In this document: positions 36,995 through 63,760 of the stretch, in pieces
Numbering within the stretch: position 1 is the stretch's first letter
How the letters are laid out: every line of letters begins with the position of its first letter
Source of the DNA: Flavobacteriaceae bacterium
GTDB taxonomy: Bacteria > Bacteroidota > Bacteroidia > Flavobacteriales > Flavobacteriaceae
DNA: 64,000 nucleotides
Direction: 5' to 3'
Assembly: GCA_021647885.1 (NCBI GenBank)
Contig: JAKITV010000004.1
Coordinates: 1-64,000, forward strand
Made by a program: the position numbers and the translations under genes
Notes under the pieces: model-generated
What the model was told of the DNA's origin: nothing
Database searches by the model: none
What the model saw: the letters and a program-made list of their open reading frames with translations, nothing else

Positions 36995-37091
36995 CAAAAA
37001 CAGAATTCTAACATTTGCTAAAGTAAGTTAGAAATTTTGTTTTCGCTGTAAAATGACCTTTAAACCTTGATAAAAATCAAGATAAATGTTG

Positions 37092-48854: not shown

Positions 48855-51590
48855 CTAATCAAATACACTTTCAATCACTCTTTGGTGTCTTAACTTAAAT
48901 CGTGTCGAAGAACCTGCTGCTGGAACCGAATAATATTTTCTTGAGCGCACTTGTAAGTCTTTCAATTCAAAACGCTGTAACATATAACTCCACGCTCCCA
49001 TATTTCTTGGTTCTTCCTGTGCCCAGATATAATCTTTAACATTCTTATATCTATTGATTATTAATTCAATTTTATCGTTGTGCAACGGAAATAATTGTTC
49101 TACACGAATTAATGCAATATCGTTTCTTTTCAGTTTTTCGCGTTCTGCCAATACATCATAGTAAAATTTTCCTGAACAAAATACCATCCGTTTTACATTA
49201 TCAGGATTTATTGTATCATCAATGATTTCCTGAAATTCTCCATTGGTAAAATCTTCTAAAGTTGAAGTTGCTAATGGATGCCTTAACAAACTTTTTGGCG
49301 TAAATACAATAAGAGGTTTGCGGAAATTACGTTTCATTTGACGACGCAACAGATGGAAAAAGTTTGCTGGAGTTGTACAATTAGCCACTGTCATATTATC
49401 AACACCACATAATTGTAAATAACGCTCAATTCTTGCAGATGAATGTTCAGAGCCTTGACCTTCGTATCCATGAGGCAATAAAATTACAATCCCGTTTTGT
49501 TGTTTCCATTTGTCTTCGGCTGCCGATAGATATTGGTCGAAAATAATTTGTGCTCCATTACTAAAGTCTCCAAATTGAGCTTCCCAAATGGTTAAGGTAT
49601 TTGGTGCAGCCATGGCGTAACCGTAATCAAATCCCAACACACCATATTCTGATAAAGAAGAATTATAAATCGTCATTTCTCCTTTGTTCTTTGGATTTGT
49701 ATTTAGCAAATTAAATGTTTTGGTCGAAATTTCATCTCTTAATATAGTATGACGATGGGAAAATGTCCCTCTCTCGACATCCTGACCAGACATTCTAACA
49801 TTATATCCTTCTTCTAACAGACTACCAAATGCAAAAATCTCTGCCATGCTCCAGTCTAATTTATTGGTTTCAAAAACCATTTTAGCTCTGTCACGTAAAA
49901 TCCGTTCTGCTTTTCTTAAAAACTTAACACCTTTTGGAACTGTAGAAACTATTTCAGCAATTTTTTGTAAATTCTTTTTTGGATATTTTGTGCCAACACT
50001 TAATAACAAGCCTTCTAAATCCTGATACATAAAACTATGCCAAATATTATCCATAAATGGCTTAACTTTAGTTGCAGAATCTTCTTTAGACTTATCGAAT
50101 TCTTTTTCTAATAAAGCTTTGTATTCAATAATTAAATTTGAAGTGTGATTTTCGTCAATTACACCTTCTGCAATTAATTTATCGTTATAGATATCGCGTG
50201 GATTTGGTTGTTTTGCAATTGCTTTATACAATTTAGGTTGTGTAAAACGAGGTTCATCCCCTTCGTTATGACCATATTTTCTATAGCCTAACAAATCTAT
50301 AAACACGTCGCGCTTAAACTTCATTCTAAAATCCAAAGCCATTAAAACGGCATGAGTAACAGCCTCAACATCATCTGCATTAACATGTAACACAGGAGAT
50401 AATGTAACTTTTGCAACATCTGTACAATAGGTGCTTGAGCGTGCATCTAAATAACTTGTTGTAAATCCTATTTGATTATTTACCACAATATGTACTGTTC
50501 CCCCTGTTGAATAGCCTTTTAACTTACTCATTTGAATAAGCTCATAAACAATTCCCTGTCCTGCAACTGCAGCATCGCCATGAACAATTATAGGCAATAT
50601 TTTTGAAGAATCGCCTTGATATTCTTCATCTATTTTTGCGCGAGTAATGCCTTCTGCTACCGAACCAACAGTTTCCAAATGAGATGGGTTTGGCACCAAA
50701 TTCATGGTAATCTCCTTATTGCTTTTAAGGGTTTTCTTTATTGTAGAACCCAAATGATATTTTACGTCACCATCAAAATCATCTTCATCGTAATCCTTAC
50801 CAGCAAACTCATTAAAAAGCTCTCGAATTGGTTTTCTAAAAATATTCACCAAAGTATTTAATCTGCCTCTGTGTGCCATACCAAGAACAAACTCATCTAC
50901 ATCATATTGTTCAGCTGCAATCCTAACTATTGCTCCTAATGCTGGAATAAGGGTTTCACCTCCTTCTAACGAAAATCGTTTTTGACCTACATATTTAGCT
51001 TGTAAAAACTGCTCAAAAGTAACTGCTTGTACTAATTTTGAAAGCACATATTTCTTGGTTTCTGGAGTATAATTGGGATGATTGTCGTTTTTGTTTAGTT
51101 TATTTTGCCACCATTGAATTTCTTCGGGATTACGAATAAACATATACTCAATTCCAATTGAATCACAATAAATTCTCTCCAGATGAAAAATGATTTTATC
51201 CAATCTTTGTGGCCCTATACCTAAAATATCGCCTGCATTAAAAACTGTATTTAGATCTTTATCTGTTAACCCAAAATTTTCTATTGCTAATGTTGGCATA
51301 TATTTTCGACGCTCTCTAACAGGATTCGTTTTAGTAAATAAATGCCCTCTACTTCGATAACCATCTATAAGTTTTATAACCTGAAATTCTTTTTGTACCT
51401 GCTCTGGAATTTGTGTTGTAACACCTTCTATAATTTCTCCATCAATGCCATAGTTTTCTCTCCCAAAATCGTAGCCTTGAAAAAAGGCTCTCCAACTTGG
51501 CTCTACAGAATCTGGATTAGATATATATTGTTCGTATAAATCGGCAAAGTATGCTGTATGTGCCGCATTTAAAAAAGAATATTTGTCCAT
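48855..51590 (-). CDS. sucA: 2-oxoglutarate dehydrogenase E1
   Basis: A 911-residue thiamine-diphosphate enzyme that decarboxylates 2-oxoglutarate in the citric acid cycle. It shows the N-terminal E2-binding FLNAAHTAYFADLYEQY, FVLGMAHRGRLNTL, the ThDP site IIVHGDAAVAGQGIVYE ... VVNNQIGFTTS, and GSEHSSARIERYLQL near the C-terminus. sucB follows directly. There is no gene in the 141 bp between it and the rrf2-type gene. Confidence 0.98.
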   Translation of the reverse strand: MDKYSFLNAAHTAYFADLYEQYISNPDSVEPSWRAFFQGYDFGRENYGIDGEIIEGVTTQIPEQVQKEFQVIKLIDGYRSRGHLFTKTNPVRERRKYMPTLAIENFGLTDKDLNTVFNAGDILGIGPQRLDKIIFHLERIYCDSIGIEYMFIRNPEEIQWWQNKLNKNDNHPNYTPETKKYVLSKLVQAVTFEQFLQAKYVGQKRFSLEGGETLIPALGAIVRIAAEQYDVDEFVLGMAHRGRLNTLVNIFRKPIRELFNEFAGKDYDEDDFDGDVKYHLGSTIKKTLKSNKEITMNLVPNPSHLETVGSVAEGITRAKIDEEYQGDSSKILPIIVHGDAAVAGQGIVYELIQMSKLKGYSTGGTVHIVVNNQIGFTTSYLDARSSTYCTDVAKVTLSPVLHVNADDVEAVTHAVLMALDFRMKFKRDVFIDLLGYRKYGHNEGDEPRFTQPKLYKAIAKQPNPRDIYNDKLIAEGVIDENHTSNLIIEYKALLEKEFDKSKEDSATKVKPFMDNIWHSFMYQDLEGLLLSVGTKYPKKNLQKIAEIVSTVPKGVKFLRKAERILRDRAKMVFETNKLDWSMAEIFAFGSLLEEGYNVRMSGQDVERGTFSHRHTILRDEISTKTFNLLNTNPKNKGEMTIYNSSLSEYGVLGFDYGYAMAAPNTLTIWEAQFGDFSNGAQIIFDQYLSAAEDKWKQQNGIVILLPHGYEGQGSEHSSARIERYLQLCGVDNMTVANCTTPANFFHLLRRQMKRNFRKPLIVFTPKSLLRHPLATSTLEDFTNGEFQEIIDDTINPDNVKRMVFCSGKFYYDVLAEREKLKRNDIALIRVEQLFPLHNDKIELIINRYKNVKDYIWAQEEPRNMGAWSYMLQRFELKDLQVRSRKYYSVPAAGSSTRFKLRHQRVIESVFD

Positions 51591-51731
51591 TATATTATAT
51601 TAGACGTTCTTGCTTCAAGAAAATTTTGTCAAAAGTACAACTTTTAGCAAAATTACTAACTGTTTTAATGCATTAATAACACTAAGGATTTATTGATTTA
51701 ATAATACTTTTTTTGGAAAGATTTATAAACT

Positions 51732-52163
51732 TTAAAGTGGTAAAAAAGCATTTCCTAATTCAACTTCTAACGCTAAATCTTTAATTGAAATACTTTCTAA
51801 ATTTCTTATAATACTTGATTTGAAAGGATATAAAGATTTATGAAGAGGACAAGGTTTGTCTTCATCACATTCATTTAAACTCAACATACAAGAATTGAAA
51901 TTTTTTTCTCCATCAATAACATTTACAATGCTCATTATTGATTGCTTTCTATTATTATCACTTAAATAAAACCCTCCTTTAAATCCTCTTGACGAAGAAA
52001 TTATGTTTTGTCTTGAAAGCTCTTGTAACAGTTTCGCAATATAAGCTTGAGGTACATTAATGGGTTCAGAAATATCTTTAACCATTACCTTTTTTTTATC
52101 ATTAGAATTTAACGCTAAAAACAAAACTGCTTTTATAGCATATTTTGATGATTTTGAAAGCAT
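51732..52163 (-). CDS. Rrf2-family regulator (NsrR/IscR-like)
   Basis: A 143-residue regulator. The N-terminal winged helix has KYAIKAVLFLAL and VPQAYIAKLLQELSRQNII, typical of Rrf2. Three cysteines (92, 99 and 105; C-x6-C-x5-C) occupy the place of the Fe-S ligands of NsrR and IscR. It is divergent from the nos genes with a palindrome between, so it probably senses NO or redox state and controls N2O reduction. Which of the two it senses cannot be told from the sequence. Confidence 0.88.
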   Translation of the reverse strand: MLSKSSKYAIKAVLFLALNSNDKKKVMVKDISEPINVPQAYIAKLLQELSRQNIISSSRGFKGGFYLSDNNRKQSIMSIVNVIDGEKNFNSCMLSLNECDEDKPCPLHKSLYPFKSSIIRNLESISIKDLALEVELGNAFLPL

Positions 52164-52206
52164 TTAGAGTGAATATTAATAAGAAACTCAAAAATAAAAA
52201 GATATC

Positions 52207-52239
52207 TTTGTCTTAAATATGATTTTTATCATATTTTTG
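52207..52239 (+). promoter_or_regulatory. nos promoter with overlapping 22-bp operator
   Basis: TTTG (52207-52210) and TATTTTTG (52232-52239) are 21 bp apart. Between and over the -7 box lies the perfect inverted repeat AAATATGAT-TTTT-ATCATATTT (52215-52236). The position suggests repression, most simply by the divergent Rrf2 protein. The TGAT-N4-ATCA centre also resembles FNR/CRP-type sites. On the other strand a TATTTTTG (52189-52196) could be the -7 box of the rrf2-type gene. Confidence 0.7.
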
Positions 52240-52292
52240 TATATACGAAGGTCTTATTTTTGACCCAATTTAATTATCAATTAACATACATT

Positions 52293-52790
52293 ATGAAAAC
52301 ACTAAAAACCCTATCAATCTTCTTTGTTCTATTAGTTCTTAGCTGTGGTGGAAACGATGAAACGAAGAAAGAATCTTCAAAAGTAAAACTTAAAACCACA
52401 GAAAAAAAGGTCGAAGCTAAAAAAACTACAACAACAAAGCCTTCCGAAACTATTGATCTTGTTAACAAAGGTGTCGGTCCTATAACTTCAGTTACTTTAG
52501 CTCCAGAAGTAGATCAAGCTATGGCTGCTCAAGGTGCAAGTATATATAAAAAAATGTGTACTGCTTGCCATAAGCCAGACAAAAAATTTATTGGTCCAGC
52601 TCCAAAAGGGATTATGGAAAGACGAACTCCAGAATGGATAATGAATATAATTTTAGATCCAGAAGGCATGGTAAAAAACGATCCTTTAGCAAAAGCACTA
52701 CTTATGGAATTTAACGGCTCACCAATGGCAAATCAAAATTTAACCGAAGAAGAAGCCAGAGCTGTACTTGAGTATTTTCGAACACTATAA
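52293..52790 (+). CDS. Cytochrome c lipoprotein, first gene of the nos locus
   Basis: A 165-residue periplasmic lipoprotein (lipobox LVLSC, Cys18) with a Lys/Thr-rich linker and one class I cytochrome c domain. The haem site is MCTACH and the likely Met ligand is in GSPMANQNLTEEEARAVLEYFRTL. The frame is open to 52260, but only the ATG at 52293 gives a proper signal peptide. As the gene heads the nos locus, it is the likely electron donor to NosZ or a carrier to its donor. Confidence 0.9.
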   Translation: MKTLKTLSIFFVLLVLSCGGNDETKKESSKVKLKTTEKKVEAKKTTTTKPSETIDLVNKGVGPITSVTLAPEVDQAMAAQGASIYKKMCTACHKPDKKFIGPAPKGIMERRTPEWIMNIILDPEGMVKNDPLAKALLMEFNGSPMANQNLTEEEARAVLEYFRTL

Positions 52791-52823
52791 ATATATATGA
52801 ATCAACACTATAAATAATATAAT

Positions 52824-53405
52824 ATGAAACCAAACCTTAAAATGTTATTTAGTGTAATTATTGTACTACTATTTATTAGTTGCAAAAATGATGCTAATAA
52901 CCAAAAAACAAACGACGACGCGACAACAGTTAACACACAAGCTGATAAGACTACAGGCCAAGCCTTTATAGCAGATGATGGTTCTATGCCAAATGTATTG
53001 CAAATTGCAATCGGATCTCCAGATCACACAACTTTAGTAGCTGCTGTACAAGCTGCAGATTTAGAAAATGCATTGGTTAATGCAGGACCTCTAATGGTAT
53101 TTGCTCCAACAAACGCTGCTTTTGATGCTCTGCCTGAAGGCACAGTAGAAACTTTGCTTAAACCAGAAAACAAAAACACATTAGCAGACATTTTAAAATA
53201 CCATGTTACTCCTGGAAACTACAGCAAAGAATTTCTTAAAAAGTTTAAAAAACTTGGTCAAGCTAATAACCAGTATGTTACTGTAGAAGTAAAAGGTGAT
53301 GATGTATATGTTGGTGGAGCAAAAATTCTTGGAAGCGTTAAAGCTGGAAACGGAATAGTGCATGTTATTGATAAAGTTATGTTACCACCTTCTAAAGAAA
53401 ATTAA
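52824..53405 (+). CDS. Fasciclin-domain lipoprotein of the nos locus
   Basis: A 193-residue predicted lipoprotein (lipobox FISC) with a single fasciclin (FAS1) domain: LVAAVQAADLENALVNAGPLMVFAPTNAAFDALPEGTVETLL, then ILKYHVTPG and the end GIVHVIDKVMLPP. Fasciclin genes are often seen beside clade II nosZ in Bacteroidota, with no defined role. It lies 33 bp after the cytochrome gene and 30 bp before nosZ. Confidence 0.9.
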   Translation: MKPNLKMLFSVIIVLLFISCKNDANNQKTNDDATTVNTQADKTTGQAFIADDGSMPNVLQIAIGSPDHTTLVAAVQAADLENALVNAGPLMVFAPTNAAFDALPEGTVETLLKPENKNTLADILKYHVTPGNYSKEFLKKFKKLGQANNQYVTVEVKGDDVYVGGAKILGSVKAGNGIVHVIDKVMLPPSKEN

Positions 53406-53435
53406 AATATTTAAAAACTAACACACAAAATAATA

Positions 53436-55397
53436 ATGAAAAATATAATTAAAATTTCTATTGGATTTCTATTGATTGCATTTGCTTTCACTAGCTGTAA
53501 TAATAGCAATTCATCACAATCAAAAGGAGCTTTATCATCTAGTGCTGCCGAAAAAGTTTATGTAGCACCTGGAGAGCACGACGAATTTTACGCCTTTGTT
53601 TCAGGTGGATTTAGTGGACAGTTAGCTGTTTATGGATTGCCTTCAGGAAGACTGTTTAAGGTAATTCCCGTATTTTCAGTAGATGCTGAAAAAGCTTGGG
53701 GATTTAACGAAGAAACCAAACCTATGTTAAATACATCTTACGGTTTTATTCCTTGGGATGATTCTCACCATCCAGATATTTCTCAAACAAATGGAGAGTT
53801 AGATGGCCGTTGGGTATTTATTAATGGAAACAATACACCTCGTATTGCAAAAATTGATTTAACAACTTTTGAGACAACAGAGATAATTGAAATCCCTAAT
53901 ACTGCAGGGAATCACAGTTCATCATATGTAACTGATAATACTGAATATGTAATTGCTGGTACAAGATTTAGTATTCCTGTGCCTCAAAGAGATATGTCTA
54001 TTAAAGAATATAAAGGTAATTTTAAAGGAACACTTTCTTTTATTAAAGTTGACCCAGAAGATGGTGGAATGGAAATTAAATTTCAATTATTAATGCCAGG
54101 TTTCAATTATGATAAAGCACATCCTGGAAGAGGAAAATCTCATGGCTGGTTCTTCTACACAACTTATAATACCGAAGAAGCTCATAGTTTATTAGAAGTA
54201 AATGCATCACAAAATGATAAAGATTTTATTGCTGCAGTTAACTGGAAAAAAATCGAAGAATATGTAAATAATGGTGGTGGAACTATGATGCCAACCAACT
54301 ATGCACATAATGTTTATGACGACAGAACTCATAGTGCTACTTCTACAATGATAAAAGAAGTTCTTATGGTTGATCCATCTGAAGTTCCTGGTGCTGTTTA
54401 CTTTTTACCAACACCTAAGTCTCCTCATGGTTGTGATGTAGATCCAACTGGAGAATATATTGTAGGGAGTGGAAAGCTTTCATCAAACGTTACAGTACAC
54501 TCTTTCACAAAAATGTTAGATGCTATTGAAAACGAAAAATTTGCAGGCGAAGCTTATGGTATTCCTATTTTAAACTTTGAAGATATTTTAGCAGGTAGCG
54601 TTGAGCAACCAGGTTTAGGGCCTTTACATACAGAGTTTGATGGTAAAGGAAATGCATATACAACATTCTTTATTTCATCTGAAGTTGTAAAATGGAAATT
54701 AGGAACTTGGGAAGTTTTAGACAGAAAACCAACCTATTATTCAGTAGGTCACTTAATGATTCCTGGAGGGAATTCTCAAAAGCCTTATGGAAAATATCTA
54801 TTGGCCATGAATAAAATTACCAAAGATCGATATTTACCTACTGGTCCAGAAGTAACACAATCTGCTCAATTATACGACATAACAGGAGATAAAATGGAAC
54901 TTTTATTAGATTTTCCAACAGTTGGAGAACCACATTATGCAGCAGGAATTCCAGCAGATTTGATAAAATCTAAATCTAAGAAGTTGTTTAATTTAGAAGA
55001 AAACGAACATCCTTATGCAACTAAAACTCCTGCAGATGTTAAAGTTGTTAGAAATGGAAAAGAAGTTCATATTTATATGACTACGATTAGAAGTAACATG
55101 AACCCAGACAATATAGAAGGTGTCAAGGTTGGGGATAAAGTATATTTCCACGTAACTAATCTTGAGCAAGATTATGATGTACCACATGGTATAGCTATGA
55201 TAGGTGCTAATACATCAGAGTTGCTTATTATGCCAGGACAAACAGAAACATTTGTTTGGTATCCTAAAAAAGTTGGTGTTTGGCCATTCTATTGTACAGA
55301 TTTCTGTTCTGCTTTGCACCAAGAAATGCAAGGTTACGTAAGAGTGTCTCCAAAAAACTCAAATATAGAATTGTCATGGTCTCTTGGAGAAGATTAA
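53436..55397 (+). CDS. nosZ: Nitrous-oxide reductase (clade II type)
   Basis: A 653-residue copper enzyme reducing N2O to N2. The N-terminus is a Sec-type signal ending FTSC (Cys21), with no twin-arginine motif, which fits clade II. A seven-bladed propeller with the CuZ histidines follows: His111-His112 in DDSHHPDIS, GNHSSSYV, PHGCDVDP, LGPLHTEFDG, VGHLMIPGG and GEPHYAAG. The C-terminal cupredoxin domain holds CuA: VPHGIAM and FYCTDFCSALHQEM (Cys620, Cys624, His628, Met631). All visible ligands are in place, so the enzyme should be active. A terminator follows. Confidence 0.97.
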   Translation: MKNIIKISIGFLLIAFAFTSCNNSNSSQSKGALSSSAAEKVYVAPGEHDEFYAFVSGGFSGQLAVYGLPSGRLFKVIPVFSVDAEKAWGFNEETKPMLNTSYGFIPWDDSHHPDISQTNGELDGRWVFINGNNTPRIAKIDLTTFETTEIIEIPNTAGNHSSSYVTDNTEYVIAGTRFSIPVPQRDMSIKEYKGNFKGTLSFIKVDPEDGGMEIKFQLLMPGFNYDKAHPGRGKSHGWFFYTTYNTEEAHSLLEVNASQNDKDFIAAVNWKKIEEYVNNGGGTMMPTNYAHNVYDDRTHSATSTMIKEVLMVDPSEVPGAVYFLPTPKSPHGCDVDPTGEYIVGSGKLSSNVTVHSFTKMLDAIENEKFAGEAYGIPILNFEDILAGSVEQPGLGPLHTEFDGKGNAYTTFFISSEVVKWKLGTWEVLDRKPTYYSVGHLMIPGGNSQKPYGKYLLAMNKITKDRYLPTGPEVTQSAQLYDITGDKMELLLDFPTVGEPHYAAGIPADLIKSKSKKLFNLEENEHPYATKTPADVKVVRNGKEVHIYMTTIRSNMNPDNIEGVKVGDKVYFHVTNLEQDYDVPHGIAMIGANTSELLIMPGQTETFVWYPKKVGVWPFYCTDFCSALHQEMQGYVRVSPKNSNIELSWSLGED

Positions 55398-55448
55398 TAA
55401 TATGAAGATTAATAGCTAGGAGAATTTTGTTTTAGTGTTTATTTTCCT

Positions 55449-55486
55449 AAAAAGGCGGGAGTAATTGGTTGTTTCTCCCGCTTTTT
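55449..55486 (+). terminator. nosZ terminator
   Basis: Stem GCGGGAG (55455-55461) / CTCCCGC (55475-55481) with flanking AAA and TTTTT. It separates nosZ from the accessory genes, which then need read-through or their own promoter. The gap to 55599 shows no consensus promoter. Confidence 0.8.
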
Positions 55487-55599
55487 ATTTGAAAAAAAAT
55501 TCCGATATTTGTAGTAGAGTATTAATAATACAATTATCACTCTCACTAGCCTTATTATTGTCAAAAAAGAGCAAATCAGAATAACTGAAAAAAAAGAAA

Positions 55600-56190
55600 A
55601 TGGAAAAGTCAAAAATGTTAATGTTGTTAGCAGCATTACTCCCTTTGGGATTGTTTATATTTCCTTTATGGAACATAACTCTTGAAGCACCTCAATATCC
55701 TACTCCATTAGGAATGAATATTCATATAAATGATTTTACCGATGCTAATCCTTTCGATATTAAAAATATAAACATAATGAACCATTATGTTGGTATGAAA
55801 TATATTCCCGATGCTATTCCAGAATTTAAAATATTCCCAGCAGGAATTATTATAACCACAATTATTGGACTTATAATTGGGTTTAAATTTAATTACAAAT
55901 GGTTTTTAGGATGGTTTATTTTAATGTGTGTTTTAAGTCTTGCAGGGCTTTATGACTTTTATCTCTGGAATTATGACTACGGTCACGATCTGGATCCAAG
56001 AGCAATAATGAAATTTACTAATCCTGATGGCAGTGCTATGGGCTTTCAACCTCCTTTATTTGGATCTAAAGATGTACTTAATTTTAAAGTACATTCTTAT
56101 CCGCGTTTTGGAGCACTGTTTTTAGCTTTAGGTATAGGATTATCATTTTTTGCTTACTTGCTTGGCAAAAAGGAAAAAATAAAACAATGA
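55600..56190 (+). CDS. Membrane protein of clade II nos loci
   Basis: A 196-residue inner-membrane protein with four hydrophobic segments (about 6-24, 82-100, 104-124 and 168-188). The first external loop has the motif INIMNHYVGM, which I recall in proteins at this position of other clade II nos loci. The conserved His and Met could contact copper. The function is unknown. The stop overlaps the nosL start by 4 bp. Confidence 0.65.
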   Translation: MEKSKMLMLLAALLPLGLFIFPLWNITLEAPQYPTPLGMNIHINDFTDANPFDIKNINIMNHYVGMKYIPDAIPEFKIFPAGIIITTIIGLIIGFKFNYKWFLGWFILMCVLSLAGLYDFYLWNYDYGHDLDPRAIMKFTNPDGSAMGFQPPLFGSKDVLNFKVHSYPRFGALFLALGIGLSFFAYLLGKKEKIKQ

Positions 56191-56624
56191 ATAAAAAGTT
56201 AATTGTTGTTCTAATTGTTACATCGGTTTTAATTGCATGTAACGCAAAACCTAAAGCTATAGAATATGGTGTAGATGGTTGTCATTTTTGCAAAATGACA
56301 ATTGTGGATAAACTACATGCGGCCGAAATTGTAACTGAAAAAGGAAAAGTATATAAGTTTGATGCTACAGAATGCATGATAAATTTTATGGGTGAATTTG
56401 ATACTTCAACCATAGCATTATACTTATCAAATAATTATACAGAACCTGAAGTGTTAATAGACGCTACTCAAGCTACATTTTTAATTAGCAAAAATATACC
56501 AAGCCCAATGGGAGCCTTTCTTTCAGCATTTAAAAATAAAGAAGACGCTATTAAAACTCAAGCAGAAAAAAGTGGTGATATTTATACTTGGGAAGAACTT
56601 TTAACACATTTAAAAAACAAGTAA
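56187..56624 (+). CDS. nosL: NosL copper chaperone lipoprotein
   Basis: A 145-residue lipoprotein (Cys18, lipobox LIAC). The copper-site signature is GCHFCKMTIVDKLHAAEI and the conserved ATECMINFM follows. NosL delivers Cu(I) toward NosZ with NosDFY. It lies between the membrane protein gene and nosD. Confidence 0.94.
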   Translation: MNKKLIVVLIVTSVLIACNAKPKAIEYGVDGCHFCKMTIVDKLHAAEIVTEKGKVYKFDATECMINFMGEFDTSTIALYLSNNYTEPEVLIDATQATFLISKNIPSPMGAFLSAFKNKEDAIKTQAEKSGDIYTWEELLTHLKNK

Positions 56625-56657
56625 AACTTCAATTTTATTTTATTGTACTTTGCGCTT

Positions 56658-57899
56658 ATGAAAAAGGGCTTTATTTCTTTAATTATAATCTTCTGTGCTT
56701 CAGTTTTAAATATAAAAGCTGAAACCATTGAGGTTTGCACAACTTGTAAGATCACTTCAATAAAAGAAGCCATTGCTATTGCCAAAGATTTTGATACCAT
56801 TATTGTAAAAAAAGGGACTTACTACGAATATGATATTGTTATAGATAAACCACTAACCATTATTGGTGAAAATTATCCTGTTATTGATGGTAAATTAAAA
56901 GGGGAAATCATTACAATTCATTCAGATAATGTTACTGTTGGTGGGTTTCATATAATAAACGTAGGAATAAGTTATACTGAAGATTATGCTGCAATTCGCA
57001 TTGTAAAAAGCAAAAATTTTATTATTCAGAATTTAAAACTCGAAAAGCTTTTCTTCGGAATTTATTTAGAAAAAGCCAAGGAAGGTAAAATACTTAATAA
57101 CACTATAATAGGTGATGCCAAGCAAGAATATAATTCTGGGAATGGTATCCAATTATGGTATAGTAAAAACATAGAAATAGAAGGCAATTATGTACAAGGT
57201 GTGCGAGACGGCATTTATTTAGAGTTTTCAGATTTCTGTAATATTACCAATAATATAAGTAAAGGTAATATACGATATGGACTTCATTTCATGTTCTCAA
57301 ACAACGATGTATATAAAGGCAATACATTCGAAAATAATGGTGCTGGTGTTGCGGTTATGTTTTCGAAAAAAATAAAGATGTACAACAACACTTTTAAAGA
57401 AAATTGGGGATCGGCTTCTTATGGTTTACTTTTAAAAGAAATAAACGATGCCGAAATTATAGGTAATACTTTTGAAAAAAACACTATTGGGATAAACATT
57501 GAAGGCACGAACCGAATTAATTACAAAAACAATGATTTTATTAGAAATGGTTGGGCTATAAAAGTTCGAGGTGCATGTTATGCTAACATTTTTTCTGGGA
57601 ATAATTTTTTGTACAACTCATTCGACCTTTCCTATAATAGTAAAATGAATGACAATGTGTTTGATGGAAATTATTGGAGCAATTATGCAGGTTACGACTT
57701 GGACAAAGATGGGATTGGCGATGTGCCTTATAGACCAGTAAAATTATTTTCATATATTGTGAACCGCACACCAGAAACTATTATATTGCTCCGTAGTTTG
57801 TTTATAGATATTATAGATTTTTCTGAAAAAGTATCACCAGTTTTTACACCAGATGATTTGTTGGATAATAACCCTTCAATAAAAAAAATAGAATGGTAA
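56658..57899 (+). CDS. nosD: NosD copper-site maturation protein
   Basis: A 413-residue periplasmic beta-helix protein. After a signal peptide (MKKGFISLIIIFCASVLNIKA) come repeated right-handed helix turns rich in Asn and Gly (FIIQNLKLEK, GNTFENNGAGV, NNTFKENWGSASYG). The conserved NosD end NYWSNYAGYDLDKDGIGDVPYRP is present. The frame is open to a TTG at 56643, but the ATG at 56658 gives the signal peptide. The stop overlaps the nosF start by 7 bp. Confidence 0.94.
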   Translation: MKKGFISLIIIFCASVLNIKAETIEVCTTCKITSIKEAIAIAKDFDTIIVKKGTYYEYDIVIDKPLTIIGENYPVIDGKLKGEIITIHSDNVTVGGFHIINVGISYTEDYAAIRIVKSKNFIIQNLKLEKLFFGIYLEKAKEGKILNNTIIGDAKQEYNSGNGIQLWYSKNIEIEGNYVQGVRDGIYLEFSDFCNITNNISKGNIRYGLHFMFSNNDVYKGNTFENNGAGVAVMFSKKIKMYNNTFKENWGSASYGLLLKEINDAEIIGNTFEKNTIGINIEGTNRINYKNNDFIRNGWAIKVRGACYANIFSGNNFLYNSFDLSYNSKMNDNVFDGNYWSNYAGYDLDKDGIGDVPYRPVKLFSYIVNRTPETIILLRSLFIDIIDFSEKVSPVFTPDDLLDNNPSIKKIEW

Positions 57900-58600
57900 C
57901 TATTGAAAATTTGCATAAAAAATTTAACAAAAACATAGTACTAAGTGGTATTGACCTCAATATTAACGAAGGTGGTATTTTTGCTGTCCTTGGACCAAAT
58001 GGTTCTGGAAAAACAACGCTTATTAAGTCTATTTTAGGAATGGTTATTCCTAACAAAGGAAAAATATCAGTACTCGGCACAAACATAAAGCACAATTCAG
58101 CATATAGAAGTAAAATTGACTATTTACCACAAATTGCAAACTTTCCCAATAATCTTAAGGTTAGGGAACTTATTAAAATGATAAAGGATTTGCGTGGTAA
58201 AACCGATGAAGATGTGCGCTTAATTAAGCTCTTTAATTTAGAGCCTTTTTTAAACAAAAAATTGGGCAACCTATCGGGAGGAACAAAGCAAAAAGTGAAT
58301 ATTGTTTTAACCTTTATGTTCGATAGCCCTTTAATAATACTTGACGAGCCTACAACTGGTTTAGATCCTATTTCGTTAATTGAACTAAAAAAACTTATTC
58401 AAAACGAAAAAGCTAAAGGAAAAACCCTTTTAATAACATCTCATATCATGAGTTTTGTTGAAGAAGTATCAGACGAAATTGTTTTTATTTTAGAAGGCGA
58501 AATTTATTTTAAAGGAACCATAAACGACTTAAAAACAAAAACAGATCAACCCGATTTTGAACACGCTATTGCATCAATTTTAACAATCAATAATGCTTAA
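57893..58600 (+). CDS. nosF: NosF ABC transporter ATPase
   Basis: A 235-residue ATPase with Walker A GPNGSGKTTL, signature LSGGTKQKV, Walker B LIILDEPTTGLDP and a switch His in TSHIMSF. With NosY and NosD it forms the complex that assembles CuZ. It overlaps both neighbouring genes. Confidence 0.95.
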   Translation: MVTIENLHKKFNKNIVLSGIDLNINEGGIFAVLGPNGSGKTTLIKSILGMVIPNKGKISVLGTNIKHNSAYRSKIDYLPQIANFPNNLKVRELIKMIKDLRGKTDEDVRLIKLFNLEPFLNKKLGNLSGGTKQKVNIVLTFMFDSPLIILDEPTTGLDPISLIELKKLIQNEKAKGKTLLITSHIMSFVEEVSDEIVFILEGEIYFKGTINDLKTKTDQPDFEHAIASILTINNA

Positions 58601-59375
58601 AATATTAAAATATAGTTTTTACGATTTAATGCGAAGCCGTTGGAGCTACGTGTATTTTGTTTTTTACCTGCTTCTTGGTGTTGTGTTATTATTTCTTAAT
58701 AACAATTTATCTAAAGCAGTCATTACATTAATGAATGTAATTATAGTTCTTGTTCCATTAATAGGAACCATTTTTGGAGTCATGTATTATTACAATTCTA
58801 AAGAATTTACAGAACTTTTATTAGCACAACCCTTAAAGCGATCGTCCATATTTTTAGGACAATATCTAGGTGTCGCTTTGTCCTTATCTATGAGTTTAAT
58901 ATTAGGATTAGGGATTCCTTTCGTGTTCTACGGTTTATTTAGGTCGAATGACATTTGGGATTTTTCATTATTGTTAATTACTGGAACTTTTTTAACTTTT
59001 ATATTTACTGCTTTGGCATTTAATATTGCTTTATCAAACGAAAATAGAATAAAAGGTTTTGGTTATGCCATTTTACTTTGGTTGTTTTTAGCAGTAATTT
59101 ATGATGGTTTATTTTTAATGTCCTTAATTCTTTTTGAGGATTATCCATTAGATAAATTATCTCTTTTTGGCACAATGCTTAATCCTATTGATCTCTCAAG
59201 AACACTCATTCTATTAAAACTGGATATTTCTGCATTGTTAGGTTATACTGGAGCGGTTTTTAAAAAATTCTTCGGCACAAACTTTGGCTTAATTGTTTCT
59301 ATTATAATGCTTTCCGTTTGGGTTGTTTTACCAGTTTTAAGAATAGTATATAAATCAAATAGAAAAGATTTTTAA
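58593..59375 (+). CDS. nosY: NosY ABC transporter permease
   Basis: A 260-residue inner-membrane protein with six hydrophobic segments. The start overlaps nosF by 8 bp. Conserved parts are YSFYDLMRSRWSYVY at the N-terminus and YYYNSKEFTELLLAQPLKRSSIFLGQYLG, typical of NosY. It anchors NosF and NosD. Confidence 0.93.
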   Translation: MLKILKYSFYDLMRSRWSYVYFVFYLLLGVVLLFLNNNLSKAVITLMNVIIVLVPLIGTIFGVMYYYNSKEFTELLLAQPLKRSSIFLGQYLGVALSLSMSLILGLGIPFVFYGLFRSNDIWDFSLLLITGTFLTFIFTALAFNIALSNENRIKGFGYAILLWLFLAVIYDGLFLMSLILFEDYPLDKLSLFGTMLNPIDLSRTLILLKLDISALLGYTGAVFKKFFGTNFGLIVSIIMLSVWVVLPVLRIVYKSNRKDF

Positions 59376-59405
59376 ATCCATAATAAACATTAATTTATAC
59401 ATATC

Positions 59406-59867
59406 ATGAAAATAAAACTTTTAACCATATTCGTTCTAATATTATCACTTATGAGTTGCAAAAATGAAACTCAAAAAAATAATCCCAATACAACTGAAGC
59501 AGAAGAAGTGACTGTTGATGAATCCTTAAAATTAAGACTTGATAATGGAGAGAAATGGGTTGCTAACAAAGAAACCCATATTGGCATTAAAAATATGGAT
59601 TCCTTAATTAAAGCGTTTAATACAGATGATACTAAAAACTATTTTGATTTAGGTGAAGCACTTTCAAAGCAAACCAGTTATGTGATAAAAAACTGTTCTA
59701 TGAAAGGCGAACCTCATGATCAATTACATATTGTTTTAGTGCCAATGTTAGATGAAATTTCGGTGTTAAAAGAAGCCAAAAACAACAAGGATGCCTCCAA
59801 GGCTCTTGAAAACCTGAAAGCTCTAATCACAAAATATTTTATATATTTTAGGTATAGTAAAACCTGA
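59406..59867 (+). CDS. Unknown lipoprotein after nosY
   Basis: A 153-residue predicted lipoprotein (lipobox LMSC). The mature part is helical. A segment VIKNCSMKGEPHDQLHIVLVPM places Cys, Met and two His close together and may bind a metal; otherwise it is a plain helical bundle. I do not recognise a family. It follows nosY by 30 bp and is probably in the same transcript, which suggests a job in NosZ assembly or copper handling. Confidence 0.7.
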   Translation: MKIKLLTIFVLILSLMSCKNETQKNNPNTTEAEEVTVDESLKLRLDNGEKWVANKETHIGIKNMDSLIKAFNTDDTKNYFDLGEALSKQTSYVIKNCSMKGEPHDQLHIVLVPMLDEISVLKEAKNNKDASKALENLKALITKYFIYFRYSKT

Positions 59868-59911
59868 TTTTAATCATAAACTCACCAACACTTATTATTT
59901 AAATTTGCGTT

Positions 59912-60310
59912 GTGATCATATCATTTACAAATAAAATAGTAGCGTTAATATTATCCATTATATTGTTGACACATAATATAAACAATGCTATTATAATAGG
60001 TGATTTTATAATCAATCAGGACATAATAGCCAAAACCTTATGTATTCAAAAGGAAGAACAAAAAGGGTGTAATGGCAAATGCCAACTTCGTAAGGAACTC
60101 TCACAAAACATTAATTCAGATTCTAATAGTGAGTCCCAAATTCCAGAAACCAAAAGAATGGCATTAGACTTCTATAACATTACAAATAGCAACAATGTTA
60201 AATCTCAATGGGCTTGGAGCTTAAATACTAAACATAAAATCATTACCAATAGTAATATACCAACATCTATTTATTATGATGTAGATACTCCTCCTCCAAT
60301 TTTTAGTTAA
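59912..60310 (+). CDS. Small exported cysteine-motif protein
   Basis: A 132-residue protein. A single hydrophobic N-terminal segment is followed by DFIINQDIIAKTLCIQKEEQ and KGCNGKCQLRKEL. That pattern of one Cys and then C-x3-C is one I recall in small Bacteroidota proteins next to copper TonB receptors. The only upstream start is GTG at 59912, and a TAAATTTG box at 59900-59907 would place transcription at almost that base, so translation may be leaderless or the box is fortuitous. The gap after it (60311-60416) has a small GTTTAC/GTAAAC hairpin. Confidence 0.6.
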   Translation: MIISFTNKIVALILSIILLTHNINNAIIIGDFIINQDIIAKTLCIQKEEQKGCNGKCQLRKELSQNINSDSNSESQIPETKRMALDFYNITNSNNVKSQWAWSLNTKHKIITNSNIPTSIYYDVDTPPPIFS

Positions 60311-60416
60311 TCTTTATTGTTTACTGGTAAACTTAATGTTTCCCAACAATTATTTGCTTATTTATTTAAGCGAACAAGATGCTATATAACATATATAAAC
60401 ATAAAATTACTAAAAA

Positions 60417-61259
60417 ATGAAACTAAAATATATATTACCTATCCTATTCATCTCATTGTTTAACATTGCTTGTTCATCTGATGATGACACACCTATTATT
60501 AATGAAATAGAAGATCTTTTAAAAGTTCAAGATATAATAAACAACACACATACTATAGAGCTTTACACAAAAAGTGGTATGTTTTACACAGGCTACAATG
60601 AAGTAAGTATTAGAATAAAAGACAATACGAATGATGCCTTTTTTGAAAATGCAACTATTAACTGGATGCCTATAATGCAAATGATGACTATGCAACATTC
60701 TTGTCCAAAATCCAGTTTAACAAAAGCTGAAGGAAAAGATACAGTTTACACTGGCTTTGTTATTTATCAAATGACAAATGCTGATGGTTCTGGTTGGTCA
60801 TTAACATTTACCTATACTATTAATGATGTAGAATATACCGTTACAGACACTATAAATGTAATGCAATTTGACAATCAAAACGTTACAAGCTTTATGGGAA
60901 GTGATGACACTAAATACATTATGGTTCTAATAGAACCTGACAGCCCAAAAATCGCTATCAATAATTTAAAGGTTGGCCTTTACAAAATGGAAAGCATGAT
61001 GGCTTTTCCGGTTGTAGAAAATTATACCATTACTTTAGACCCTCGCATGCCTGGAATGGGAAATCATAGCTCACCTAACAATACAGATTTAACATATAAC
61101 ATAGCAGATGGCATGTATAATGGAGATTTATCTCTTACAATGACTGGCTATTGGGTATTGAATTTAAAACTGCTTAATGAGCAGGGCATAGTATTAAAAG
61201 GTGAAGATGTAACTGAGGCTAACACTCAAAGCAGCCTATATCTGGAACTGGAGTTTTAA
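60417..61259 (+). CDS. Met/His-rich surface lipoprotein, probable copper binder
   Basis: A 280-residue lipoprotein (lipobox NIAC, then SSDDD). An acidic run right after the Cys is the Bacteroidota lipoprotein export signal, so exposure on the cell surface is predicted. Two beta-sandwich repeats of the FixH/YtkA-like type follow. Each has a Met/His cluster: WMPIMQMMTMQHSCP in the first (about 81-95) and PRMPGMGNHSSPN in the second (about 205-217). I infer copper capture for the TonB receptor encoded next, as in a SusD-SusC pair. Confidence 0.72.
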   Translation: MKLKYILPILFISLFNIACSSDDDTPIINEIEDLLKVQDIINNTHTIELYTKSGMFYTGYNEVSIRIKDNTNDAFFENATINWMPIMQMMTMQHSCPKSSLTKAEGKDTVYTGFVIYQMTNADGSGWSLTFTYTINDVEYTVTDTINVMQFDNQNVTSFMGSDDTKYIMVLIEPDSPKIAINNLKVGLYKMESMMAFPVVENYTITLDPRMPGMGNHSSPNNTDLTYNIADGMYNGDLSLTMTGYWVLNLKLLNEQGIVLKGEDVTEANTQSSLYLELEF

Positions 61260-61285
61260 TACACTAAAGGTTTATTTAAAACCAA

Positions 61286-61325
61286 TTAACAGACACATTG
61301 TGGCAAAGAACAATGTGTCTGTTAA
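61286..61325 (+). promoter_or_regulatory. Strong hairpin before the copper-type TonB receptor gene
   Basis: A perfect 16-bp stem (TTAACAGACACATTGT, 61286-61301, with its complement at 61310-61325) and an 8-nt loop. There is no U-tract, so it may stabilise or process the mRNA between the lipoprotein and receptor genes, or control receptor translation. Confidence 0.65.
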
Positions 61326-61352
61326 AATATCTATCATTTAATCTGTAAAATC

Positions 61353-63353
61353 ATGAAAAAGCTTACCATACTTGGTGTTAGCTTACTTTTTAGCACCTTA
61401 ACCATTGCTCAAGAAACATCAACAATCAAAGAGCAGGATACAACAAAATTAGAAGAGATTATTATTATTGGTCGTAGAAAATTAAGCAACTACAGACAGG
61501 AAAAAACACTCTCAAGTATAGATGACTATTTGGAAAAGTCTAACAGGATAACCATGATAAAGCGTGGTAATTACGCATGGGAACCTGCATTGAACAATAT
61601 GGTTAGTGACAGGCTTGCCATAACTATAGATGGCATGCAAATTTTTGGCGCATGTACAGATAAAATGGATCCTATTACGTCTTATGTAGATGTTTCAAAT
61701 TTAGAAAAAGTAGTCATAACCTCTGGACAGGAAGGTACTGAAAATGCACATTCTGTTGGAGGCGGAATAGACTTAAAACTACCACAATCTACATATTATG
61801 ATTCTGGACTAAAAACCAGTATTGATTTAGGTTATGAAACTAATGGAAATTACAGCGTAGGTGGTTTAGACATAGAATATTCAGGAAATAAATTTTATGC
61901 AAATTTAGATGGGATTTATCGTAAGTCTGATAATTTTGAAGCAGGAAACAACGAAGAAGTTTTATACTCTCAATTTGAAAAATATAACATTTCCTTTCAA
62001 GGTGGCTACAAACTGTCTAAAAGCCATGTGCTTGATGCTAATATTATTTACGATCGTGCCACAAATGTAGGTTACCCTGCATTACCAATGGATGTGTCTT
62101 TAGCAGAAGCCACAATTGTCTCTTTAAAACATACTTATAAAAGTGATTCTGCCAGAATAAAATCATGGGAATCTAAATTATACTTTAATACCATTACTCA
62201 TATTATGGACGATTCTAAACGTCCTGATGTTCCTATTCGCATGGATATGCCAGGTTGGAGTGATACTTTTGGTTTTTACTCTAAAGCAACTTTTAAAAAA
62301 GATAAACACAATTTACTATTTAATTTTAATGGGTTTTATAACCGTTCTTTAGCAGAAATGACCATGTATCCAAATGACACTAGTCAGCCTGCTATGTTTA
62401 TGTACACATGGCCAGATATCAGAACTTTATATACTGGTCTTTACGTCAAAGACGCTTTGGCTTTAAACGAAAAAGAAACAATATCAGCTTCAATACGTTT
62501 GGGTTTTCATAACAATAAAATTGCCGAAGAAGCAGGACTTGAGAGCCTTCAAATTTTTTATCCTGACATAGAGGATTCCAAAAACAGGTTTTTAATAAGT
62601 ACATCTGCTAATTATGAGCTGAAACACAAAGCTTATGATGCCACATTTGGTTTAGGTTATGGCGAAAGAGCACCTTCGGTTAGTGAAGGTTATGGATTCT
62701 TCTTGTTCAACAGTTTTGACAATTATGATTATATAGGGAATCCCACTTTAAAAAACGAAAAATCATTAGAAGCTAATATTAAAGCAAACTATTATTTTAA
62801 AGACTTTAAGCTTGGAATAGAATCCTCTTACTTTCATATTATGAATTATATTATTGGCGAAATAGACGAATCTTTAAGCCCAATGACAATTGGTGCAAAT
62901 GGCGTAAGGGTTTATGAAGGGTTAAATTATGCCAATATTTTTAATGTGTATTTAAATTCAACTTATAAGATTTCAAAAAAAGTATCTTTAAACGGCACTA
63001 TTGGATATAACCATGGAAAAGGCAGTAATGATGAAAACTTGCCTCTAATTCGTCCCGTTACATATTTAGCTGAAATAAATTATAGCACTTCAAACTTTAA
63101 TGCTGCCTTACAGTTAGATGGAAACAGCACACAAAATAAATACAGCAGTAATTATGGTGAAGATAAAACTCCTGCCTACACTATATTGAACCTTAATTTA
63201 GGGCATTCATTCTTATTAAAAGACAACAAAATAATACTTAAATATGGTGTTGAAAACCTATTGGATAAGAACTACTCAACATTTGCAGATTGGAACAACA
63301 TTCCTCGACAAGGGCGTAATTTTTATCTTAATATATCTTATGTAATCCTTTAG
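61353..63353 (+). CDS. TonB-dependent copper receptor, OprC/NosA type
   Basis: A 666-residue outer-membrane receptor with signal peptide (ending about TIAQ, 20), plug (about 35-150) and barrel ending in YVIL. The plug loop reads FGACTDKMDPITSYVD, giving Cys101-x3-Met105. An HxM (His283, Met285) lies in the barrel in THIMDD. OprC of Pseudomonas binds copper through CxxxM plus HxM with nearly the same spacing. NosA, its relative, is needed for copper loading of NosZ in Pseudomonas. Position at the end of a nos locus fits. It ends 5 bp from a convergent gene. Confidence 0.85.
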   Translation: MKKLTILGVSLLFSTLTIAQETSTIKEQDTTKLEEIIIIGRRKLSNYRQEKTLSSIDDYLEKSNRITMIKRGNYAWEPALNNMVSDRLAITIDGMQIFGACTDKMDPITSYVDVSNLEKVVITSGQEGTENAHSVGGGIDLKLPQSTYYDSGLKTSIDLGYETNGNYSVGGLDIEYSGNKFYANLDGIYRKSDNFEAGNNEEVLYSQFEKYNISFQGGYKLSKSHVLDANIIYDRATNVGYPALPMDVSLAEATIVSLKHTYKSDSARIKSWESKLYFNTITHIMDDSKRPDVPIRMDMPGWSDTFGFYSKATFKKDKHNLLFNFNGFYNRSLAEMTMYPNDTSQPAMFMYTWPDIRTLYTGLYVKDALALNEKETISASIRLGFHNNKIAEEAGLESLQIFYPDIEDSKNRFLISTSANYELKHKAYDATFGLGYGERAPSVSEGYGFFLFNSFDNYDYIGNPTLKNEKSLEANIKANYYFKDFKLGIESSYFHIMNYIIGEIDESLSPMTIGANGVRVYEGLNYANIFNVYLNSTYKISKKVSLNGTIGYNHGKGSNDENLPLIRPVTYLAEINYSTSNFNAALQLDGNSTQNKYSSNYGEDKTPAYTILNLNLGHSFLLKDNKIILKYGVENLLDKNYSTFADWNNIPRQGRNFYLNISYVIL

Positions 63354-63358
63354 GTAAC

Positions 63359-63709
63359 TTAGCTATATTGATGTTTAAACCATACTTTTTGCCATTCTCT
63401 TTTTAAGATTAAAAATGCAACTTGTTCAGAAAGTTTCAAGATGTCGCTTCCGTCAAGTTGCTTTATTTTTTCTTCAGAAACGTCAATGATGTAAAGTAGG
63501 CTTAAGTAGTCTGCAAATTTCTCTTGAATGAGTTTATAAATGGTTTCGTGCAGGATTAGTTTTAAACTTGATGGCAATATATCTTCATCAAAATCTAAAT
63601 CAATATTTGCATACAAAAAGTCTTTATTGAGTTGTTGGATGAGTTTTTTGTATAGACCATTATGATTTGCATGCTGCACTAACTCATCAAAGTTTATAAG
63701 ATTTTTCAC
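63359..63709 (-). CDS. Hypothetical protein
   Basis: A 116-residue acidic helical protein with no signal or membrane segment. It begins MKNLINFDELVQHANHNGLY and ends LKREWQKVWFKHQYS. I do not recognise a domain. It lies 51 bp after the polyprenyl synthetase gene on the same strand, with a dispersed palindrome between. Confidence 0.6.
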   Translation of the reverse strand: MKNLINFDELVQHANHNGLYKKLIQQLNKDFLYANIDLDFDEDILPSSLKLILHETIYKLIQEKFADYLSLLYIIDVSEEKIKQLDGSDILKLSEQVAFLILKREWQKVWFKHQYS

Positions 63710-63725
63710 TAAAATAGATTTATTT

Positions 63726-63758
63726 AAACCTCACAGATTTTAAAAACCTGTGTGGTTT
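63726..63758. repeat. Inverted repeat AAACC(T)CACAG...CTGTGTGGTTT
   Basis: A 33-bp imperfect inverted repeat with a TTTTAAAAA centre between the last two genes. The layout matches the perfect palindrome at 7379-7405. Confidence 0.6.
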
Positions 63759-63760
63759 AT

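Follow-up and report, generated by a model that had tools for sequence, protein, structure and literature searches.

Does a nitrous-oxide reductase (nos) operon of the Flavobacteriaceae carry its own means of bringing copper across the outer membrane? The question was raised by the nos locus in positions 1-64,000 of contig JAKITV010000004.1 (Flavobacteriaceae bacterium, assembly GCA_021647885.1; 67 contigs, 87% complete), the 64,000-nucleotide stretch of DNA that was analysed here and is referred to as the window. In the initial annotation, the last four genes of this locus were read as a copper module dedicated to the reductase, NosZ. We consider it likely that three of them, encoding a small Cys/Pro protein, a Met/His lipoprotein (lipoB) and a TonB-dependent receptor (tonB), constitute an OprC/NosA-type copper-import cassette within a low-oxygen programme shared with nos. 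This reading builds on the observed anatomy of the locus, ligand conservation, co-occurrence with nosZ, repeated linkage to nos, a shared promoter element and the hallmarks of a leader peptide. The cassette probably serves low-oxygen copper acquisition co-regulated with nos, and not NosZ alone. The survey covered 397 genomes of the family, including the window's own.

The nos operon and the boundary of the cassette

All previously listed genes were open at their coordinates and on their strands, and the observation of a nos locus with attached copper genes was confirmed. A divergent rrf2 gene is followed by the genes for cytochrome c and a fasciclin-domain protein, nosZ, nosB, nosLDFY, the gene for lipoprotein A (lipoA) and the cassette (Table 1); names were assigned partly from Pfam and TIGRFAM profile scores, in bits, against curated cut-offs. 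The operon is of the clade II (Sec-type) nos kind and has a Flavobacteriaceae core. NosZ belonged to the Sec-dependent family TIGR04246 (934 bits versus a cut-off of 625) and matched solved NosZ (6rkz, E-value 1.2e-89), with the C-terminal CxxxC..H..M motif of CuA aligned. The NosB protein contained NHYVGM and YGHD, corresponding to the diagnostic motifs NHYxGM and YGH (PMC9697520; here and below, statements on published work refer to the accessible parts of the cited papers), and its gene lay between nosZ and nosL/D, as in clade II nos clusters. NosY scored 26 bits with PF12679, slightly below the cut-off of 27.2.

For comparison, 113 nos loci were fetched from 175 family genomes above the nosZ cut-off; some were picked for a receptor beside nos, and some of the stretches stop inside the cassette, which affects the counts of cassette genes. 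The core was near-constant in these loci (nosZ in 113, cytochrome c in 112, nosD in 111, nosY in 110, fasciclin in 98 and Rrf2 in 70), and the genes on the cassette side were variable (receptor in 35, small Cys/Pro protein in 34, lipoB in 30 and lipoA in 17). The word fasciclin was absent from the main text of the flavobacterial nos papers that were searched for it.

The proposed copper module held as a copper cassette attached to nos; its extent had to be reduced from four genes to three. The nos locus of congener G292 (94% complete, locus L067) runs from rrf2 to nosY, continues with lipoA and then reaches the 116-amino-acid gene that, in the window, bounds the cassette on its far side. No match to the small Cys/Pro protein, lipoB or the receptor was found in this locus, and neither a receptor nor a small Cys/Pro protein match was found elsewhere in that genome. 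Because both flanks are present in G292 without the cassette, the latter is a unit that is cleanly present or absent between conserved flanks, and because lipoA is retained there, it belongs to nos independently. The four-gene module was rejected on the grounds that lipoA stands beside nos without the other three genes in L067, L106 and L123, and that it is rarer in the nos loci than the small Cys/Pro protein (17 versus 34 of 113). The cassette is thus composed of the small Cys protein, the two-domain Met/His lipoprotein and the OprC/NosA-type receptor. Fold searches with lipoA returned only generic four-helix matches, with Z of about 11, a range considered unspecific.

A promoter element shared by nos and the cassette

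The nos operon and the cassette are preceded by the same composite element, TGAT-N4-ATCA followed by TAnnTTTG, the latter starting 29 bp past the centre of the box in both cases (boxes at 52220 for nos and at 59865 for the cassette). The nos box doubles for rrf2 on the opposite strand. We take TGAT-N4-ATCA to be the FNR core and TAnnTTTG to be the Bacteroidetes -7 element; the 29-bp spacing would presumably fit activation from about -41.5. After removal of exact duplicate regions (near-copies were kept), the strict box was found upstream of the cytochrome c gene in 58 of 144 regions, versus 2.3 in shuffles, and upstream of the small Cys/Pro protein gene in 25 of 95, versus 0.8. It was found in none of the 103 regions upstream of lipoB, two of the 109 upstream of tonB and none of the 142 upstream of nosZ. 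The spacing of the strict pair was constrained: all 56 cytochrome c regions having the pair showed 29 (one had an additional pair, at 55), as did 18 of 19 regions before the small Cys/Pro protein, the remaining one having 30. A relaxed box was located at spacing 29 in 119 of 144 cytochrome c regions and 50 of 105 small Cys/Pro protein regions, with 16 of the latter at 30, and the other spacings averaged about one region each.

The whole assembly held ten composite elements and none of the reversed pattern. The seven further elements precede genes that, judged by reading their sequences, encode pyruvate phosphate dikinase, a 2-oxoacid:ferredoxin oxidoreductase, a universal stress protein, a TerB-like/thioredoxin pair, a putative haem-type lipoprotein, a LamG protein and an Mla-type permease. 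In cassettes distant from nos (G054 and G090), as well as in the nosZ-less G093, the element was located at the start of the small Cys/Pro protein gene or just upstream. As cis-element evidence, the shared element suggests that the cassette is not expressed independently of nos. The activator of both would be an FNR-type protein, and four CRP/FNR-type genes of the assembly are candidates; one of them diverges from a heavy-metal ATPase gene, on the contig of a COX1-family gene (probably cbb3).

Pairs of strict -33/-7 promoter motifs occurred too seldom to be of use. An FNR-like palindrome, TTGATAAAAATCAA, at 37067-37080, was discarded, since its spacing to TAnnTTTG was 18 and not 29; it lies upstream of genes reading as rimP and nusA. 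The seven further loci with the composite element (L265 and L269-L274) constitute a candidate low-oxygen regulon.

Co-occurrence with nosZ and the role of the cassette

A receptor like the window's, defined by at least 45% identity, was present in 66 genomes including the window's, three of these being partial matches; at most three candidates were scored per genome, and some receptors may be missed. nosZ was present in 60 of these 66 genomes versus 121 of the 331 without such a receptor. When one genome per genus was taken, in place of a species-tree test, nosZ was found in 34 of 37 receptor genomes and in 113 of 235 overall. For any OprC-type signature, the corresponding values were 117 of 151 genomes with it and 64 of 246 without. 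Since nosZ accompanies the receptor in 60 of 66 genomes, the possibility that the copper genes occur mostly without nosZ, named in the initial annotation as a refutation, fails.

Several observations count against a programme shared with nos. In the class of receptors with 41-45% identity, nosZ was found in 6 of 14 genomes only, with no association. Six genomes have a receptor of at least 45% identity and no nosZ; conversely, such a receptor is missing from 121 of 181 nosZ genomes, some possibly overlooked, and congener G292 carries nos with neither cassette, receptor nor small Cys/Pro protein. Fisher p-values overstate the independence of the genomes, which are related to one another. The strict box preceded only 28 of 105 small Cys/Pro protein genes in the spacing analysis, the family of this protein extends beyond the cassette, with a match in 235 of 397 genomes, and the fold of the RNA downstream of its gene is not special (see below). 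In one strain of P. stutzeri, knocking out nosA reportedly left the activity and copper content of NosZ unchanged (PMC8610252).

Dedication to NosZ, as originally proposed, therefore proved too strong: six of the 66 receptor genomes lack nosZ, the congener has nosZ without the cassette, and genome G115, one of the six, keeps the cassette after the loss of nos. At this last locus (L077 9154-13320), a deletion scar is visible in which the cytochrome c gene and a 34-residue end of nosY are left beside an intact cassette; the remaining nos genes gave no match there. It is accordingly quite possible, if short of probable, that the cassette imports copper at low oxygen in general, for cbb3 oxidases and other cuproenzymes no less than for NosZ, and that its adjacency to nos reflects a shared regulon rather than a task specific to NosZ. 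Some OprC-type receptor occurs without a full nosZ in 34 genomes (G146 and G214 have nosZ fragments). Among genomes with no nosZ, G071 (L079) retains the box at spacing 29 and G093 the full element just upstream of the small Cys/Pro protein gene. The deletion in G115 spared the cassette, and the CRP/FNR-type gene divergent from the heavy-metal ATPase gene, on the contig of the probable cbb3 gene, fits the same explanation. The co-occurrence in 60 of 66 genomes and the repeated linkage with nos specifically argue against it and for the programme shared with nos.

The small Cys/Pro protein as a candidate copper-sensing leader

The first gene of the cassette (labelled cnk in this report) most likely encodes a leader with a copper-sensing nascent chain; its mechanism and the sign of its effect are predicted. 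The window's protein has 132 amino acids, with C44, CNGKC at 53-57 and DTPPP near the C-terminus, and a hydrophobic N-terminal segment is visible in the alignment of the family. In 24 aligned rows, only 20-54% identical to the window's protein, the invariant residues were C44, C53, G55, K56, C57, L59, P128 and P129. Among 106 distinct homologues, 103 combined CxGKC with Pro-Pro in the last ten residues, at a spacing of 64-71 (69 or 70 in 86 of the 103). Pro-Pro stood 2-8 residues before the stop codon in 103 of the 106 and within the last ten residues in 105; in the background of mechanically called open reading frames of at least 150 amino acids, Pro-Pro occurred within the last ten residues in 92 of 3069. 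Length was conserved though the middle was poorly conserved, as 724 of 959 random pairs (25-40% identity in that stretch, at least two gaps) differed in its length by at most one residue. The median gap to the next gene was 111.5 nucleotides for lipoB (92 cases) and 162.5 nucleotides for tonB (12 cases).

The protein follows the size and proline rules of the CutF-like survey (below 150 amino acids, Pro-Pro in the last 15 residues; PMC9973294), and also its synteny rule, so the leader class is already known; our proposal concerns one of its members, or else a new family, that heads a nos-linked importer. Assignment to DUF2946, the family of CruR, was rejected, because none of 24 family members matched it at an E-value of at most 1 and the motif is CX3C (CxGKC), not CXXC. 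Of the 90 strongest genomic places of the leader family, 69 were followed, at a distance of up to 4 kb, by an OprC-type signature; as the other 21 do not precede such a receptor, the family heads other genes too.

Could this protein instead be a mature periplasmic copper chaperone, with structural prolines at its C-terminus? The hydrophobic N-terminal segment and the metal-type CNGKC motif would suit a chaperone, as would the 21 homologues that do not head an OprC-type receptor; arrest of the ribosome by the leader is a prediction only, and the RNA-structure test was not specific to the gap behind its gene. We nevertheless find it unlikely. Apart from the Cys motif and the C-terminal end, almost no position is invariant, and still the distance from one to the other is held through compensating gaps; Pro-Pro lies 2-8 residues from the stop in 103 of 106 homologues, versus the 92 of 3069 background reading frames; and an OprC-type receptor follows 69 of the 90 strongest matches, all of which argues for the leader.

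The folding test was confined to gaps of 60-160 nucleotides, compared with dinucleotide shuffles, a range that leaves the window's 202-nucleotide nosZ-nosB gap outside. The mean folding z was -2.2 for leader-lipoB (63 gaps), -5.4 for lipoB-tonB (71), -4.2 for nosZ-nosB (120) and -1.1 for nosL-nosD (8), and z was below -2 in 69 of 71 lipoB-tonB and 116 of 120 nosZ-nosB gaps of relatives. A perfect 6-bp hairpin near the stop was found in 33 of 63 leader gaps versus 12.4 after shuffling, in 19 of 71 lipoB-tonB gaps versus 13.5 and in 29 of 120 nosZ-nosB gaps versus 19.9. Because the lipoB-tonB and nosZ-nosB gaps of the same loci fold more strongly, an RNA switch between leader and lipoB was rejected, folding there giving no specific support. 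A search of positions 50000-64000 against Rfam gave one match of 22 bits, far below the gathering score of 100.

Repeated linkage in several arrangements

The receptor was encoded at most 25 kb from nosZ in 38 of 65 genomes (the window excluded), the position of nosZ being unclear in two more. In the 80 best named loci, ranked by receptor similarity alone, nosZ was inside 50; among the other 30, 16 came from genomes having nosZ above the cut-off outside the counted stretch, and two of those 16 loci (L197 and L250) hold part of nos. The arrangement of the window, downstream of nos on the same strand, was one of several. Cassettes upstream of nos had two gene orders, leader-lipoB-tonB and leader-tonB-lipoB, the Flavobacterium type was placed downstream behind an inverted fasciclin gene, and in F. 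denitrificans the cassette was divergent from nos. On a FastTree phylogeny of 114 receptors, the linked/unlinked label changed at least 14 times, 12 of the changes being forced by starred branches, and the arrangement changed six times among the linked rows; loci outside the named set were mostly chosen for nosZ, which over-represents linked rows.

A second receptor subfamily, 23% identical to the window's and with the same site (ACPNRMD, HLMD), precedes nos in L125 (12346-15073) and L163 (4726-7453). A member of the small Cys protein family is again at the head, and no lipoB match was found at these two loci.

Linkage could be passive if a single cassette had been inserted downstream of nosY in a Flavobacteriaceae ancestor and then inherited, as 59 of 79 linked rows share one arrangement and the labels are strongly clustered on the receptor tree. 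The other arrangements, upstream, behind the inverted gene and divergent, together with the second receptor subfamily beside nos, make this improbable and favour repeated association.

The receptor and lipoprotein B

The receptor scored 127.1 bits with the TonB-copper model TIGR01778, below the cut-off of 472.45, and is therefore called OprC-type and not filed as a member. Its CxxxM-HxM copper site is kept in 19 diverse receptors (residues in Table 1). When a profile of 19 relatives was run at an E-value of at most 0.001, OprC was the sole solved structure matched (6fok, E-value 1.6e-30), and the four residues aligned with GACPNRMD and HIMD of OprC. The copper ligands of OprC are C143, M147, H323 and M325, and NosA is termed its orthologue (PMC8610252); the CxxxM-HxM site has already been published for an OprC-like receptor of Bizionia (PMC11213822). 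We infer that the window's receptor binds and imports copper. That it carries heme, zinc or a siderophore instead is very improbable: the heme receptor model TIGR01785 scored 77 bits and the copper model stays below its cut-off, yet the latter outscored the former, the site is invariant in 19 relatives, and OprC structures were the only ones found by the profile.

In the AlphaFold model of lipoB (predicted local distance difference test score, pLDDT, 89.5), two Ig-like domains were present, the first of which matched CrdA (9ll2) with Z of 13.2 and a root-mean-square deviation of 2.6 over 105 residues; the next row had Z of 8.6. With YtkA (PF13115), the protein scored 21.2 bits, below the gathering cut-off of 25.9. 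Its conserved motifs, PxMxM...MxHxCP and DPRMPxMxNH, are plausible copper ligands, and lipoB may be the partner of the receptor. A whole-model Foldseek search was set aside, as it returned mostly antibody-type and other Ig folds.

Proposed mechanism

Under the shared low-oxygen programme, an FNR-type activator would switch on two separate promoters, those of nos and the cassette. The receptor would take copper across the outer membrane through the CxxxM-HxM site, and lipoB, by its Met/His residues and CrdA-like Ig domain, would bind it at the receptor or in the periplasm. Copper would then be delivered to NosZ via the NosL and NosDFY machinery. The nascent chain of the leader would sense copper by CxGKC and its Pro-Pro end would slow the ribosome, so that import is matched to the copper supply. 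Tentatively, and with not quite even confidence, we entertain the stronger view that this is a doubly gated copper-import operon for anaerobic nitrous oxide (N2O) respiration, in which the FNR-type promoter determines when copper is imported and the copper-sensing nascent peptide how much, the coupling being kept even where cassette and nos are apart. That peptide had no convincing match to DUF2946 or any other Pfam family.

Denitrification genes in the rest of the genome

The initial annotation stated that nirS, nirK and nor are absent from the window, and proposed that the cell may consume N2O without denitrifying. Their absence was upheld for the window; in searches of the whole assembly, nirS and nirK gave no match and COX1-family genes were found on other contigs only. 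For the genome, the statement does not hold as regards nor. Two of the COX1-family genes are NorB-like, one of them inside a norC-norB-norQ-norD cluster on contig C2 of the assembly (G000:C2; L065 7860-12500), beside genes reading as molybdenum-cofactor synthesis; this NorB matched solved NorB with an E-value of 2e-107. The sole molybdopterin oxidoreductase match of the assembly reads as formate dehydrogenase. Because norCBQD is present, the organism is not a bare N2O reducer, and the proposal is weakened, with no nir found in the 87% complete assembly. The cell is probably able to convert nitric oxide to N2, and a nir gene may be hidden in the missing 13%.

A second NorC/NorB-like pair follows at L065 12645-14394; the VEGVW glutamate motif present in the first NorB is missing from its NorB-like protein, a distant NorB match (E-value 5e-16). 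In 10 of 113 loci, similar small cytochromes were found close to nos. Near the nor cluster (L065 18947-19402) there is also a gene for an Rrf2 paralogue that shares 44% identity with the Rrf2 protein encoded beside nos.

Table 1. Genes and sequence elements of the nos locus and the copper cassette in the window
Feature	Coordinates	Strand	Remarks
Rrf2-family regulator	51732..52163	-	divergent from nos; PF02082 91.9 bits
rrf2 composite promoter element, TGAT-N4-ATCA-N23-TAnnTTTG	52189..52231	-	rrf2 downstream
nos operon composite promoter element	52220..52262	+	FNR-type box 52220-52231, -7-like TATTTTTG 52255-52262
Cytochrome c lipoprotein	52293..52790	+	Cytochrom_C PF00034 41 bits; homologue in 112/113 nos loci
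Fasciclin-domain lipoprotein	52824..53405	+	Fasciclin PF02469 106 bits; 98/113 nos loci
nosZ, clade II Sec-type nitrous-oxide reductase	53436..55397	+	TIGR04246 934 bits
nosB membrane protein	55600..56190	+	motifs NHYxGM and YGH (PMC9697520)
nosL copper chaperone	56187..56624	+	PF05573 53.3 bits
nosD	56643..57899	+	PF05048
nosF ABC ATPase	57893..58600	+	PF00005
nosY ABC permease	58593..59375	+	named by position; 110/113 nos loci
Lipoprotein A (lipoA)	59406..59867	+	four-helix protein, conserved CxMxGxxH; nos neighbour independent of cassette
Cassette composite promoter element	59865..59907	+	box 59865-59876, -7-like TAAATTTG 59900-59907
Small Cys/Pro protein (cnk)	59912..60310	+	GTG start; candidate copper-sensing leader
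Lipoprotein B (lipoB)	60417..61259	+	two Ig-like domains, conserved Met/His/Cys
Perfect 14-bp inverted repeat in the lipoB-tonB gap	61288..61323	+	from sequence; gap (61260-61352 in the window) strongly structured in relatives
OprC/NosA-type TonB-dependent receptor (tonB)	61353..63353	+	C101, M105, H283, M285 invariant in 19 relatives
116-amino-acid gene marking far cassette edge	63359..63709	-	after lipoA in congener (L067)

Relation to known systems

The closest functional precedent is NosA/OprC of Pseudomonas (PMC8610252), a TonB receptor with the same CxxxM-HxM site that is expressed without oxygen and repressed by copper, NosA being linked to N2O reductase. The window's receptor is distant from it and below the TIGR01778 cut-off (the OprC identity of the Bizionia relative is 21.8%; PMC11213822), and unlike NosA/OprC it has a Met/His lipoprotein partner, attachment to a clade II nos operon and a shared FNR-type promoter. 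Protein G2EC70 of Bizionia argentinensis, with the same motif (PMC11213822), is probably the same receptor, as a Bizionia species was the top row of our receptor ranking. Its locus tag, BZARG_1494, is close to that of NosL, BZARG_1501, in the table of that paper, which treats it as general copper uptake and, in its accessible part, states no link to nos, a leader or a lipoprotein.

For the leader, CruR of Bordetella pertussis (DUF2946; PMC9426467) likewise is the first gene before a TonB copper receptor, with a hydrophobic N-terminus, a Cys motif and a C-terminal Pro-Pro at near-constant spacing, and a long gap to the next gene. It differs in having CXXC where the window's family has CX3C and a spacing of 45 versus about 70, and the mechanism here is predicted only. 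CutF and CutF-like proteins (PMC9973294) share the CxxxC motif, the Pro-rich end, a length below 150 amino acids and a next gene on the same strand; they differ in that the next gene of the window's leader encodes a Met/His lipoprotein or, in relatives, an OprC-type receptor. The CutF-like survey covers Bacteroidota, TonB neighbours and nos neighbours, and no description of the clade II nos of Flavobacteriaceae was found in its accessible part. Both CruR (PMC9426467) and CutF (PMC9973294) are reported to sense copper via Cys residues and to influence the ribosome by means of their prolines, strong stalling by CutF not having been seen in the tests of the latter paper. CrdA of Helicobacter pylori (9ll2) shares the fold of the first lipoB domain; it is 11% identical, and lipoB differs in having two domains and a distinct pattern of Met/His residues.

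In our literature search, which left most subscription papers outside, no statement of a link between nos and TonB receptors in Bacteroidota was found. As far as this search shows, three points are new: that the cassette is repeatedly linked to nos in Flavobacteriaceae, that both share a promoter element, and that a leader heads the cassette.

Clade II N2O reducers are widespread sinks, and to our knowledge their route for copper across the outer membrane has not been settled. Copper supply can decide whether denitrification ends at N2 or N2O is released. A candidate importer, a promoter site and a possible copper sensor are now named, and the question posed by NosA, whether a TonB receptor feeds NosZ, can be addressed in lineages with the receptor linked to nos, as well as in sister genomes that lack the cassette.

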